From Taibaiella sp. KBW10 (GTDB lineage Bacteria > Bacteroidota > Bacteroidia > Chitinophagales > Chitinophagaceae), in assembly GCF_003852495.1 (NCBI RefSeq), contig NZ_QAJI01000005.1:1-64000 (forward strand): a stretch of DNA of 64,000 nucleotides. The letters are read 5' to 3'. Below, piece after piece: positions 51,830 to 56,039 of the stretch (within the stretch, counting starts at the first letter, position 1; every line of letters starts with the position of its first letter). The notes beneath the pieces were generated by a model. It was given only the letters and a program-made list of their open reading frames with translations, was not told the DNA's origin and searched no databases. Both the position numbers and the translations under genes were made by a program.

Positions 51830-52555
51830 ATGACCAAATTATCGGTAAATGTGAATAAGATCGCCACGCTACGCAATAGCCGTGGCGGTAATAATCCTAA
51901 TCTTTTGCAGGTAGCCCTGGATTGTGAGCGTTTTGGTGCCGATGGCATTACCGTGCATCCGCGTCCGGATGAGCGGCATATCCGCTATGCCGATGTGTTT
52001 GAACTGAAAGCAGCCATCCATACCGAATTCAATATTGAGGGCAATCCCAAAGAGGATAAATTTGTACAACTGGTCCTGGACAATAAACCGGCACAGGTAA
52101 CGCTTGTACCTGATGCTACTGATCAGTTGACTTCCAATCACGGATGGGATACGATCAGGGAACAGTCTTTTTTAAAGGATATGATTTCCCTGTTTCAAAA
52201 AGAAAATATCAGGGTATCACTTTTCGTAGATCCGCTAAGTGATATGGTGAAAGCCGCAAAAGATTGTGGTACGGATCGGGTAGAATTATATACGGAGGCT
52301 TATGCCAAAGATTTTCATCAGGATAAAGTTCGGGCAATTGCCCCCTATCTGGCCGCTGCTAAGACAGCCAAAGAACTGGGCATCGGTTTAAATGCCGGCC
52401 ATGACTTAGACCTGCATAACCTTGCTTATTTTGCGCAGCAAATCCCCGATTTGCTGGAAGTATCCATAGGGCATGCGCTGATTAGTGATGCTTTATACCT
52501 TGGCTTGCAAAATACGGTAGCGATGTATAAGCGCTGTTTGGGAGCCTGGCAATAG
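51830..52555 (+). CDS. pdxJ: Pyridoxine 5'-phosphate synthase
   Basis: 241 aa TIM barrel that condenses 1-deoxyxylulose 5-phosphate and 3-amino-2-oxopropyl phosphate to pyridoxine 5'-phosphate. Motifs: [38 protein letters not shown] (catalytic His/Arg region) near 40-60, [18 protein letters not shown] near 90, [19 protein letters not shown] near 183 and [14 protein letters not shown] near 213. Length is typical. Probably co-transcribed with hflX; a strong terminator follows. This organism therefore uses the DXP-dependent route to vitamin B6. Confidence 0.96.
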
Positions 52556-52601
52556 CGCATCTCCTGTAATCTTTACTTTTAAGGAAAAAATTATTCGACA
52601 C

Positions 52602-52648
52602 AATGCATACCGTATGTATGATTATACATACGGTATGCATTTTTTTAT
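52602..52648 (+). terminator. 18-bp terminator hairpin after pdxJ
   Basis: 52602-52619 pairs perfectly with 52624-52641 (arm sequence AATGCATACCGTATGTAT), and 52641-52648 continues as a T tract. Confidence 0.92.
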
Positions 52649-52946
52649 TTAATACCCATAAGTATTAAGTGCTGCTTGTATTGAATATAAGTATACTATT
52701 ATATGTTTATTCGCATAAAGGGAATATTCAGGGCTCAAAAATCGCAACTTCAATACAAAATTGCTATCACTATGATGAAAACAATAAGCGATGCGTACAG
52801 AACAGATCGCTTAGGACCGGCCTTATAAATCCGGCGTTAAGAAAATCATTGGCTCGGTCGATAAAGGCGCAAACCATTGTCTGAGCGCAGCGAGTTCGGT
52901 TTGCGACCGACCGACACCTTGATTTTTAGCCAAGGATTTATACAGC
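52649..52946 (+). other. Hairpin-rich intergenic region
   Basis: No convincing gene. Inverted repeats: AAGCGAT (52786-52792) with ATCGCTT (52806-52812), and a nested set: TTGGCT (52849-52854), CGGTCG (52855-52860) and CGCAAACC (52868-52875) matched in reverse order by GGTTTGCG (52898-52905), CGACCG (52904-52909) and AGCCAA (52928-52933). The arms of the nested set suggest a folded RNA or a decayed mobile-element end. A 71-codon open frame at 52669 crosses these structures and has no gene-like features. Confidence 0.4.
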
Positions 52947-52977
52947 CTTGATTTTAAAGATCCTATTTTTATCTTTG
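52947..52977 (+). promoter_or_regulatory. Near-consensus Bacteroidota promoter for the barrel cluster leader
   Basis: -33 CTTG (52947-52950), 19-bp spacer, -7 TATCTTTG (52970-52977). It is the only promoter in the window where both elements and the 19-bp spacing agree. Transcription would start near 52984 and run into the leader, the pseudogene remnant and the barrel genes. Confidence 0.65.
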
Positions 52978-53102
52978 CAGTGTACGCCCATACTTTTTAA
53001 AAAACAGAACACGTTTATCATAGGAAATACGATAAAAAAAGGACGACAATGAATTAGGCTAAAAGAAACGGGCTATTACTAAGGCTGGCTCCCGATTTTA
53101 CG

Positions 53103-53129
53103 TCTTATCTATGGTGCCAATAGATAAGA
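53103..53129 (+). repeat. Leader hairpin upstream of the barrel cluster
   Basis: TCTTATCTAT (53103-53112) pairs perfectly with ATAGATAAGA (53120-53129) around a 7-base loop. There is no T tract, so a regulatory or stabilising mRNA structure is more likely than a terminator. Confidence 0.55.
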
Positions 53130-53136
53130 TGCAAAA

Positions 53137-53304
53137 ATGCTTATTAAGATCATACAACATCTAAAACACGAAATTCAAGTTCGGGATGAAACCGGAGTAT
53201 ACACCCGGCTGTATGAAATGATAAAAAAATAGAATGGGGAAATACAATACTATGCAGCATCTGCAACAGCACCGTTTAGCGTTCATTTAGGATCTCGATT
53301 CTGA
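53137..53304 (+). pseudogene. 31-codon ORF plus in-frame remnant of an outer-membrane barrel C-terminus
   Basis: From ATG 53137 a frame encodes 31 residues (MLIKIIQHLKHEIQV to LYEMIKK) and stops at TAG 53230-53232. The same frame continues for 23 residues to TGA 53302-53304 and ends PFSVHLGSRF. This matches the C-termini FSFHIGYRF and LGFHIGYRF of the three barrel genes downstream. The 30 bp after the TGA also match the junction sequence after the first barrel gene (CGATTCT then AAAACAAAAA before ATG). It is read as the decayed end of a lost fourth paralogue. Whether the 31-codon ORF belonged to it, or is a separate small gene, is not known. Confidence 0.5.
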
Positions 53305-53324
53305 ATAATCCAAAACAAAAAGCT

Positions 53325-53933
53325 ATGTACAAAAAATGTGTATTAATCGCGGCTACTACCGCAATCACCCTTACTGCTTCGGCTAAGGAAAGAACAACCG
53401 TAATCAGACCTGCATACGGTGCGCATATGCTGCGTGTTATGCCCCTTACCGTATTTAACGGTGGTGTAGGTCTGGGTTTATCCTACGAAAGGATTCTCGA
53501 CAAAGACGGTAAGGTAGGACTCAACATTCCCATGTCTATAGGCATTAAAAATAAATACAATAACTTGGCAACCCCGAGTAATGAAATGAATTATACCTTT
53601 TTGATTAACCCGGGCATTAAATTCTATCCTACCGGACAAAGAAAGGTGACCTATGCTTTAGGCGCTTCTTTATTTGCCGCTTTAGGTACCTATGACGGTA
53701 ATTACTACCGCCGGGGTATGTATCGCTATGAGGAGGGCAACTTGCTGCAAGCAGGAATTATGATTAATAACTACCTGCAGTTTAATATATCACCAAAGGC
53801 AAATATAGGATTAGAATTAGGTGTCGGGCCGTCTTATTTAAATCAATACACGGAAAGTACAACGAGCACAAGCAGGAATACGGGTATTGGCGTCATGGCT
53901 CAGCTCGGCTTTCATATCGGATATCGATTCTAA
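53325..53933 (+). CDS. Outer-membrane beta-barrel protein, tandem paralogue 1
   Basis: 202 aa. Signal peptide YKKCVLIAATTAITLTASA followed by K where the other copies have Q. The body is predicted antiparallel strands: MPLTVFNGGVGLGLSYERIL, NPGIKFYPTGQRKVTYALGA, MINNYLQFNISPKANIGLEL, ending FHIGYRF with the terminal Phe typical of BAM substrates. About eight strands, so a small OmpW/OmpA-like barrel; ligand unknown. Start-to-start distance to paralogue 2 is 628 bp and several stretches are nearly identical at DNA level, including the first 31 bases, indicating recent tandem duplication. Confidence 0.8.
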   Translation: MYKKCVLIAATTAITLTASAKERTTVIRPAYGAHMLRVMPLTVFNGGVGLGLSYERILDKDGKVGLNIPMSIGIKNKYNNLATPSNEMNYTFLINPGIKFYPTGQRKVTYALGASLFAALGTYDGNYYRRGMYRYEEGNLLQAGIMINNYLQFNISPKANIGLELGVGPSYLNQYTESTTSTSRNTGIGVMAQLGFHIGYRF

Positions 53934-53952
53934 ACAATCTAAAACAAAAACT

Positions 53953-54570
53953 ATGTACAAAAAATGTGTATTAATCGCGGCTAGTGCTGCAATGGCTTTA
54001 ACGGCTTCGGCCCAGGAAAGAACTACTGTAATGAGGCCTGTATACGGTGCGAATATAGTTCGTATCATGCCCCTTACGGTGTTTAACGATGGTGTAGGTC
54101 TGGGTTTATCCTACGAAAGGATTCTCGACAAAGACGGCAAGGTAGGGGTGAATATCCCGGTCTCCTTAGGCATTAGAAACAACTCTTATAATGGCAGCAC
54201 GGGAAGTTATGATCAGCGGATGAATTATACGGTTTTGGTTAATCCGGGTATTAAGTTTTACCCTTCAGGACAAAGAAAAGTGACTTATGCCATCGGCGCT
54301 TCCTTATTTGCAGCTATGGGTACAGACGACAGCTATCGTATAGATAATCTGGGGATCTATCACTATACTGAAGGCAGTTTTCTAAAAACCGGAATTATGG
54401 TCAATAACTATTTACAGTTTAACCTGAGCCCAAAAATAAATATCGGCCTGGAATTGGGCATAGGTCCCATGTACTTAAATCAGTATAAAGATAATAATAC
54501 GAATACAACCACCAATTATGGTATTGATGTTATGGGACAATTCAGTTTTCATATCGGATACCGGTTTTAA
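53953..54570 (+). CDS. Outer-membrane beta-barrel protein, tandem paralogue 2
   Basis: 205 aa from the ATG at 53953; the open frame starts 22 codons earlier inside paralogue 1. Signal peptide YKKCVLIAASAAMALTASAQ. Strand regions as in copy 1: MPLTVFNDGVGLGLSYERIL, NPGIKFYPSGQRKVTYAIGA, MVNNYLQFNLSPKINIGLEL, and C-terminus FSFHIGYRF. Loops, for example NNSYNGSTGSYDQRM and YKDNNTNTTTNY, differ most, consistent with surface exposure. It starts 19 bp after paralogue 1, so the genes are likely co-transcribed. Confidence 0.8.
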   Translation: MYKKCVLIAASAAMALTASAQERTTVMRPVYGANIVRIMPLTVFNDGVGLGLSYERILDKDGKVGVNIPVSLGIRNNSYNGSTGSYDQRMNYTVLVNPGIKFYPSGQRKVTYAIGASLFAAMGTDDSYRIDNLGIYHYTEGSFLKTGIMVNNYLQFNLSPKINIGLELGIGPMYLNQYKDNNTNTTTNYGIDVMGQFSFHIGYRF

Positions 54571-54587
54571 GCACTAAAACAATTACG

Positions 54588-55217
54588 ATGTATCGGAACA
54601 TTGCATTAGGGATCTTAGTATCCACAATCTGCTTGGGCGCAACAGCACAGCAAAAAAACACGACCCTAAAGACAGAAACGGCAATAGACGGAAAAAATAT
54701 AGTCCGCCTTATGCCGGTGACTATATTTAACGAGGGCGTAGGCCTGGGCCTTTCTTATGAAAGAATTCTGGATGCAAATGGTAGGATCGGGTTTACACTG
54801 CCTCTTTCTTTGGGAATCCGGAATAGCAACTTTGACAATTACACCTCCTACAACGGAGATAACAGGGGTTATTCCTTTCTCGTTAACCCGGGGATAAAAT
54901 TTTATCCGGCCGGCCAGAGAAAAAAGGTAAGCTACGCCTTAGGTGCCTCTTTATTCGCGGCTACGGGTCAGAGCGATGTATATGATATCAACAATACGGG
55001 GTTTTACCGCCTTTCAAACGGTAACTTTCTGAGAATGGGTATTATGGTGAATAACTATTTACAATTCAACTTAAACCGGAAATTAAATATTGGGCTTGAA
55101 GTAGGCGTAGGCCCTATGTATCTGAATCGATACAAAGATCGCAGTACCAATCAGACCTATAATATGGGGATTGATGCAATGGGGCAATTTAGTTTCCATA
55201 TTGGGTACCGTTTTTAA
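54588..55217 (+). CDS. Outer-membrane beta-barrel protein, tandem paralogue 3
   Basis: 209 aa. Signal peptide YRNIALGILVSTICLGATAQ. It shares VRLMPVTIFNEGVGLGLSYE, NPGIKFYPAGQRKKVSYALG, MVNNYLQFNLNRKLNIGLEV and the end FSFHIGYRF with the other two copies but is more diverged, especially in the N-terminal 35 residues and loops. It is the older branch of the tandem family. 17 bp separate it from paralogue 2 and a terminator follows. Confidence 0.8.
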   Translation: MYRNIALGILVSTICLGATAQQKNTTLKTETAIDGKNIVRLMPVTIFNEGVGLGLSYERILDANGRIGFTLPLSLGIRNSNFDNYTSYNGDNRGYSFLVNPGIKFYPAGQRKKVSYALGASLFAATGQSDVYDINNTGFYRLSNGNFLRMGIMVNNYLQFNLNRKLNIGLEVGVGPMYLNRYKDRSTNQTYNMGIDAMGQFSFHIGYRF

Positions 55218-55236: not shown

Positions 55237-55277
55237 AAAACAAAAGGAATCTCCGGTGGTGATTCCTTTTGTTTTTT
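55237..55277 (+). terminator. Terminator after the barrel cluster
   Basis: AAAACAAAAGGAATC (55237-55251) pairs with 55261-55275, then T run. Its T-rich tail touches the gldF -7 element. Confidence 0.9.
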
Positions 55278-55304: not shown

Positions 55305-56039
55305 ATGAAAAGTATTTATTTAAAAGAACTTAGTGCCTTTTTAAGCTCTGTTGTGGGCTATGCAGTGCTCTTCGTATTCCTTATCGTCCTGGGTCTGTTT
55401 CTTTGGGTACTCCCCGATTCCAACTTCCTGGATTATGGCTATGCCAGCATGGAGCAGTTTTTTAAACTGACCCCCTGGTTATTACTCTTTCTTATCCCGG
55501 CCGTTACGATGCGCTCTTTTGCAGATGAGTTTAAGGGAGGCACCATTGAATGGCTGTCTACCAAGCCCCTGACCCTGCACCAGATTATCGGAGGTAAATT
55601 CTGGGCTTCCTTCACCCTGGTGGTGATTGCCCTGATCCCTACCCTTGTCTATGTATTTGCGATCAACTGGCTGGCCATCGACAATGCCACCCTGGATTTT
55701 GGTGCGATTGCAGGTGCTTATGTAGGACTTATTCTATTAATTGCCGCTTTTGTTGCAATCGGTATTTTTTCCTCCACACTCACCGACAACCAGATTGTAG
55801 GATTTTTATTGGCTGTAATCCTTTGCTGGCTTTTATACAGCGGCTTTGAGGCGATCAGCCGTATGCCTGTTTTTGCCGGAGGAGCTGACTATTACATACA
55901 ATTAATCGGTATGGATGCCCATTACAATTCCATTAACCGCGGGGTTATCAATACCAAAGATGTTATTTATTTTTTAAGTGTTACCGCCATATTCTGGCAG
56001 ATTACTTTGTTTACCCTGAAGCGTAAAAGGCTCCAATAA
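55305..56039 (+). CDS. gldF: Gliding-associated ABC transporter permease GldF
   Basis: 244 aa, six transmembrane helices. Family sequence: YLKELSAFLSSVVGYAVLFV at residue 5, TPWLLLFLIPAVTMRSFADE near 56, FKGGTIEWLSTKPLTLHQII near 78, and GGADYYIQLIGMDAHYNSIN near 195. GldF is the permease paired with the ATPase GldA and substrate-binding GldG in gliding bacteria. gldG normally follows gldF, but here rsgA follows, with the stop and start codons overlapping (TAATG). gldG and gldA must be elsewhere or absent. Confidence 0.9.
   Translation: MKSIYLKELSAFLSSVVGYAVLFVFLIVLGLFLWVLPDSNFLDYGYASMEQFFKLTPWLLLFLIPAVTMRSFADEFKGGTIEWLSTKPLTLHQIIGGKFWASFTLVVIALIPTLVYVFAINWLAIDNATLDFGAIAGAYVGLILLIAAFVAIGIFSSTLTDNQIVGFLLAVILCWLLYSGFEAISRMPVFAGGADYYIQLIGMDAHYNSINRGVINTKDVIYFLSVTAIFWQITLFTLKRKRLQ

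Follow-up and report, generated by a model that had tools for sequence, protein, structure and literature searches.

The window analysed here, 64,000 nucleotides long, opens contig C8 of a soil bacterium's genome (3.6 Mb in 12 contigs). Between pdxJ and gldF it holds three intact genes for barrel proteins of ~200 aa, arranged head to tail, and directly before the first of them a short piece that reads as the end of another such gene. The features of the locus are listed in order below, all of them on the + strand.

51830–52555, +: pdxJ, bordering the array locus on the left (above the cut-offs of NCBIfam TIGR00559 and NF003626)
52602–52641, +: likely terminator after pdxJ, a hairpin with a T-run (18-nt perfect inverted repeat; role judged by eye)
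52718–52955, +: fragment, with both ends missing, of a ~477-bp MITE-like repeat (repeat searches)
52948–52977, +: TTG-N19-TATCTTTG, a candidate primary promoter of Bacteroidota type whose −33 part falls within the repeat fragment (pattern match; putative function)
53096–53108, +: possible regulatory element TTTTACGTCTTAT, also before the first gene in E. flava and E. aurantiacus, with shorter variants in G003 and G004 (weak)
53137–53232, +: 31-codon ORF without recognised relative or shown barrel similarity (Pfam and profile searches)
53279–53304, +: putative relic, a barrel gene 3′ end fragment ending FSVHLGSRF-stop (alignment, shuffles and tail matrix)
53279–53519, +: putative exchange tract whose counterpart is 53908 to about 54147 and whose right end lies at codon 65 of paralogue 1 (206/241 columns identical)
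53305–53324, +: 20-nt A-rich junction resembling the one that separates paralogues 1 and 2; probable translation start region for paralogue 1
53325–53933, +: barrel paralogue 1, 202 aa (open, complete)
53953–54570, +: barrel paralogue 2, 205 aa, predicted 8-stranded barrel with signal peptide (open, complete; model)
54588–55217, +: barrel paralogue 3, 209 aa (open, complete)
55237–55275, +: likely array terminator, a hairpin with a T-run after paralogue 3 (arms 94% complementary; role judged by eye)
55305–56039, +: gldF, right flank of the array locus (NCBIfam TIGR03518, above cut-off)

The barrel genes and their relatives

As the initial annotation had described, the three genes lie head to tail, all open and complete; paralogues 1 and 2 repeat with a period of 628 bp (53313/53941) and share 31 identical bases from the ATG, and Lys is present at position +1 of the expected signal cleavage site of paralogue 1 (ASA/KERT). 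This Lys is unremarkable, since Arg occupies the same site in other members of the family (LSA/RPP in the second gene of E. flava and AAA/RGL in the first gene of G003; cleavage sites judged by eye). The junction between paralogues 1 and 2 measures 19 bases and that before paralogue 1 20 nt. Matches to paralogue 2 at E 0.001 reveal no further barrel copies in the genome besides these three. An AlphaFold2 model of paralogue 2, obtained from nine sequences (mean pLDDT 80), exhibits eight long strands between residues 34 and 204 and a final Phe, with signal peptide and strand count judged by eye, and returns 29 PDB chains as fold matches at E ≤ 0.001, among them OmpW (Z 16.7 over 163 residues at 3.3 Å) and the barrel domain of OprF (Z 16.2 over 131 residues at 2.0 Å). 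On this model, with its signal peptide, eight strands and C-terminal aromatic end, the array genes are predicted to encode 8-stranded outer-membrane β-barrels. In predicted fold these proteins are like the small 8-stranded outer-membrane barrels (OmpW, the OmpA/OprF domain, OmpX, NspA and Ail), but the family differs from these in that its profile finds no sequence relative in the PDB at E up to 1. All three proteins also match Pfam DUF3575 (PF12099) weakly (E 0.00064 to 0.007), but with 19.5, 17.6 and 16.1 bits each remains under its gathering score of 21.1 bits.

A match to the family is present in 9 of 39 genomes, this one included. The genus comparison comprises five genomes of Edaphocola, one per species and again including our own; G001 is E. 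flava, G002 is E. aurantiacus and the remaining two are denoted G003 and G004. All five have three intact genes between pdxJ and a gldF-like permease, and in two of them, G003 and G004, the permease is preceded by an additional short segment containing a small reading frame. The types of gene at the locus differ among the species, as seen in a tree of 22 rows. Here the own paralogues 1–3 group with the third gene (C) of E. flava and E. aurantiacus at a support of 88/93, which is under the tree tool's mark of good support, and neither this tree nor the matches within the own genome contain a counterpart of the A or B type of those two species. In the codon tree, paralogues 1 and 2 pair at 87/94 and all three form one group at only 63/56. 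In the tree, the second and third genes of G003 and G004 are placed apart from their positional counterparts in E. flava and E. aurantiacus, so that the position letters need not mean orthology. Since the locus is occupied by other types of paralogue in the relatives, it has presumably both lost and gained copies.

In a wider draw on the bacterial family (Chitinophagaceae), members of the gene family occur in 56 of 294 genomes and in 21 of 101 genera. Fifteen regions were fetched, mostly chosen for several matches, and by an ORF test 11 of these contain 2 to 8 adjacent copies, three contain one and one contains none; going by these regions, tandem arrays of up to eight copies are common in that bacterial family. 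A REP-associated tyrosine transposase-like gene (L042, 3762–4382; 63.5 bits, cut-off 80) lies near a two-gene array of another genus (G005). A second barrel locus, of two genes, is found in E. flava (L043, about 1699–2770, on G001:C8) and in E. aurantiacus (L044, 2063–3266, on G002:C1). One of the E. flava copies has two in-frame stops (TGA and TAG); its positional counterpart in E. aurantiacus is open, as are both genes of that species, and judged by these reading frames the second locus is a case of copy loss elsewhere in the genus.

The gene end before paralogue 1 and the shared tract

Upstream of paralogue 1, the TAG at 53230 and the frame ending in PFSVHLGSRF-TGA (53302–53304), which the initial annotation had taken for an echo of the barrel C-terminus, are both present. 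Alignment of the DNA of 53200–53330 to 53880–53960 places 53279–53321 on 53908–53950, that is, on the end of paralogue 1 and its junction to paralogue 2, with 36 of 43 positions identical and no gap. The score of 51 compares with a maximum of 33 in dinucleotide shuffles of 52956–53324 (0/1000 as good). As the ungapped match extends through 53321, the junction after the fragment does resemble that after paralogue 1. The similarity is not limited to the A-rich junction bases, because the coding part alone (20 of 24 bases, score 28) is not equalled in 5000 base shuffles, whose maximum is 24, and exceeds the best of 3090 other window stretches, which scores 23; the echo of a barrel C-terminus is thereby upheld. 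The stop codon of the fragment is 20 bases before the start of paralogue 1, the right place for a preceding gene. Only about 26 bases of its coding part are recognisable, and relative to paralogue 1 the sequence exhibits changes at aromatic positions (F to V and Y to S). The best tail for the fragment outside the own genome is that of the second gene of G003 (score 31), the other B tails scoring 15, 15 and 17.

The initial annotation had gone further and proposed a decayed fourth copy. A profile of 20 family members was run against 52956–53278 in three frames, with stops as X, and found no barrel-like signal above chance in that stretch, its best score being matched or exceeded in 284 of 1000 shuffles; the corresponding values are 143 of 1000 for 53050–53278, and 51 of 1000 when the tail is included (52956–53303). 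A tblastn search with 22 family members gives a best E of 0.010 among the matches listed, from an alignment that passes through a stop. As the profile test puts this stretch at chance, a decayed gene body upstream of 53279 was rejected. The 31-codon ORF at 53137–53232 was similarly rejected as a known domain or as part of a barrel, having neither a Pfam match at E up to 1 nor a barrel-like profile score above chance. At the DNA level, 52956–53324 produces only short matches of ~16–37 bases (best E 0.004) in 18 other genomes, and 53050–53400 produces none at E up to 0.1 in the four other genomes of the genus. Of the proposed fourth copy there stands a real 3′ gene-end fragment before paralogue 1, but not a demonstrable decayed copy: what the letters upstream of paralogue 1 hold is a gene tail and no demonstrable decayed gene.

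A tract common to paralogues 1 and 2 also has the fragment as its left end. This tract (53279–53519) includes identical runs of 33 and 48 bases, and its three parts (tail, junction and gene head) are about equally alike, at 84–85%. To the left, where the similarity ends at 53279, only 26 of 51 columns of 53230–53278 agree with the matching part of paralogue 1, and to the right (53520–53600) 57 of 89. In a maximum chi-square scan of paralogue 1 against paralogue 2 the break is at residue 65 of paralogue 1. Over all sites, 168 of 194 are identical before the break and 277 of 406 after it (0/1000 permutations as extreme), and at third positions 48 of 64 before residue 65 and 59 of 136 after it (1/1000); the permutations assume independent sites, so that significance is somewhat overstated. 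In six other pairs the third-position breaks are equalled in 54 to 926 of 1000 permutations, whereas the all-sites breaks are equalled in 0 to 39 of 1000 in five pairs and in 55 in the sixth, so that taken by itself the all-sites result does not set paralogues 1 and 2 apart. In five of these six, however, the all-sites break is of the opposite sense to that of paralogues 1 and 2, the head being less alike than the rest. Since heads are the most variable part of the gene in other pairs, the closeness of the two heads points to exchange. Trees of either gene half do not yield paralogues 1 and 2 as a supported pair. Neighbours in the array have probably exchanged sequence, and paralogues 1 and 2 are probably a recombination mosaic. 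The repeated unequal recombination with copy loss that had been proposed for the array is partly supported, by this break (0/1000, 1/1000) and by the other gene types in relatives, but not as regards a decayed whole fourth copy.

Tail-like ends before the first genes of other loci were sought with a 10-residue matrix, made from 60 gene ends (those of the present species included) and applied to ≤350 bases before the first gene at 22 loci. The own tail scores 13.2, at 23 bases before the ATG. E. flava scores 12.0 and E. aurantiacus 9.5, the latter below the 10.5 attained by the best of 44 controls, which were downstream and reverse complement stretches; among the 19 other upstream stretches one attains 10.0 and the others ≤4.7, with no clear tail in G003 (4.7) and G004 (2.8). 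The tail is 24 bases before the ATG in E. aurantiacus, and in E. flava 25 bases if the same start is used, or 4 with the start taken by the script. Of 1000 shuffles at the DNA level, 20 do as well as the match in E. flava and 18 as well as that in E. aurantiacus. The evidence is weak, but the two species may carry a similar tail before their first gene, which, as they are close, counts as one event and hints at a tail older than the species split.

The leader and its repeat

The leader between pdxJ and the array contains the truncated MITE-like repeat. Matching places, partial pieces included and with at most 40 candidates per genome scored, number at least 38 in the own genome, 40 in E. flava, 42 in E. 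aurantiacus and 4 in G004; none is found in G003 or in 14 other genomes, so that the 19 genomes searched include four with a match, every one from this genus. Full copies are contained in L086–L103 and form hairpins, and those of E. flava and E. aurantiacus exhibit terminal inverted repeats (CTGACTATCCGC / CTGAGTATCCGC) that are absent from the copy in the window. Apparent target-site duplications of 8–10 bp, with one mismatch allowed, accompany 11 of 22 copies, 10 of them cleanly; L071 is wrongly paired, and the scan missed the ends of 3 of the 22 copies and mispaired those of others. In its short length, inverted ends, apparent target-site duplications and many copies the repeat is like bacterial MITEs, for example those of Porphyromonas gingivalis (PMC4596501). 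It differs from them in being confined to one genus among the 19 genomes, and by eye there is no transposase partner among the ORFs beside three of its seven own-genome end matches (one on C1, two on C6).

The pattern TTG-N19-TATCTTTG straddles the right end of the repeat fragment. Four such patterns occur in the window where 1.56 would be expected, a count that 8 of 100 shuffles also attain; TANNTTTG occurs once in the leader (52556–53325), within the candidate promoter. With respect to the −33/−7 consensus TTTG/TANNTTTG, cited in PMC6847099, the candidate fits except at the first −33 base (the window reads CTTG). It is possibly a repeat-borne promoter for the array. If transcription started there, the tail would be within the leader of the array transcript.

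For the element TTTTACGTCTTAT, the number of shuffles (of 1000) that are as good is 30 in E. flava, 16 in E. aurantiacus, 217 in G003 and 103 in G004. A statistically weak TTTNCGTCTT-like element is upstream of the first array gene in all five genomes of the genus (53096–53108 here; leaders L038–L041), and TTTACGTCTA, also statistically weak, is in the gap between the A and B genes of E. flava and E. aurantiacus. A search of 52500–53400 against Rfam returns 14 matches up to E 1, all far under their gathering scores and over the pdxJ hairpin.

History of the locus

The reading that we favour, at a probability of about 0.58, is that of a tandem barrel array whose turnover involves duplication, loss and unequal exchange among adjacent genes, the fragment being the last ~26 coding bases of a lost preceding gene. 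The ancestral array would probably have been pdxJ-A-B-C-gldF (letters denote position), as in E. flava and E. aurantiacus, and from the tree the own lineage would have lost the A and B types while C-like genes expanded to three. The fragment would be the end of the gene that once preceded paralogue 1. Most simply this was B, although its identity is only suggested, because the junction behind the fragment is short (20 nt), like the second–third gene junctions of G001–G004 (23, 23, 12 and 11 nt) and unlike the first–second ones (119, 119, 76 and 72 nt). This junction would have been retained for its role in starting translation of paralogue 1. Two stretches, one made up of the tail of paralogue 1, the junction and the head of paralogue 2 and the other of the relic tail, the junction and the head of paralogue 1, would have undergone an exchange that homogenised ~240 bases, which may account for the equal identity of tail, junction and head; the exchange may have been a crossover or a conversion, and the order of events is likewise proposed. 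Counting against such a history are the 88/93 grouping with C, the 63/56 for the three own genes as one group, the half-trees without a pair of paralogues 1 and 2, and the all-sites breaks in other pairs. Moreover, as nothing is recognisable upstream of 53279, the existence of a preceding gene rests on 26 bases.

A reading that dispenses with a fourth copy accommodates this last point. A single conversion-like event could have overwritten the front of paralogue 1 with a stretch comprising its own tail, the junction and the head of paralogue 2, in which case no gene ever ended at 53304; the fragment is indeed the left end of the shared tract, has about the identity of that tract (36/43 compared with 206/241) and has nothing barrel-like above chance upstream of it. 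However, the left join would have to be made without homology, and the possible tails in E. flava and E. aurantiacus (12.0 and 9.5, control maximum 10.5) suggest an older tail, so that we regard such an overhang as possible though on balance doubtful. In the version of the initial annotation, repeated unequal recombination was followed by the decay, in situ, of an entire fourth copy, all within a mechanism for surface-protein variation. In favour of this proposal, the fragment and the paralogue 1/2 mosaic both exist, and the predicted outer loops differ most between paralogues (for 1 and 2, pN is 0.32 in loops and 0.13 in strands and turns). We consider the proposal improbable, given the lack of a decayed body (284/1000 shuffles), the overall purifying constraint (dN/dS about 0.14 at dS about 1.2 for paralogues 1 and 2), a copy number of three in all five genus genomes compared, and an exchanged tract that covers the signal peptide and first strands without the long loops. 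Diversifying selection on the loops is not claimed, because in most pairs synonymous divergence is close to saturation or beyond it, and the ratios there mean little.

The tail may instead be more than a passive relic and be kept as part of the leader of the first gene, as translation start context or for regulation. Tail-like ends 23–25 nt before the first start codon in three species (for E. flava only with the start of E. aurantiacus) would agree with such a role, as would the A-rich junction, for adenines upstream of the start codon promote initiation in Flavobacterium (PMC6847099). Yet the match in the two relatives is weak at the DNA level (equalled in 20 and 18 of 1000 shuffles), the fragment is altered at aromatic positions relative to paralogue 1, and G003 and G004 have no clear tail, leaving a leader role with little to recommend it. 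A further idea, to which we assign an equally slender chance, is that the truncated tail and junction are kept before the first gene, in three species with different first-gene types, as a homology anchor for conversion from the downstream neighbour; the first gene would then have matching sequence on both sides, and its front could be rewritten from that neighbour.

As for surface variation, a cassette-type layout would consist of one expressed locus and silent incomplete donors, and the genome presents three complete genes, one 26-base tail and no further copy at E 0.001. With all copies complete and no silent store found, dedicated cassette switching is unlikely. The locus displays the hallmarks of birth-and-death evolution, namely adjacent paralogues at a syntenic position with types that differ among species, and probable exchange between neighbours (the half-trees do not resolve the pair). 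Taken at the level of sequence, the locus resembles the usual turnover of a gene family and not a system dedicated to surface variation. The p28/map1 cluster of Ehrlichia, as presented in PMC4534519, likewise consists of tandem, mostly complete paralogous surface-protein genes with fragments, for which recombination is reported; it has 17–22 genes and expression data, whereas the present array has three genes, belongs to a soil genus and is known from sequence alone. Searches by title returned no Edaphocola literature on this locus, and none was found on tandem outer membrane β-barrels in the Chitinophagaceae, which does not in itself make the array undescribed.

On the favoured reading of turnover, the array would represent a case in a soil genus in which locus and copy number stay while gene types and mosaic pieces change. 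It also illustrates that a gene end next to a tandem array is not necessarily the remains of a dead gene and can be the edge of an exchange tract.
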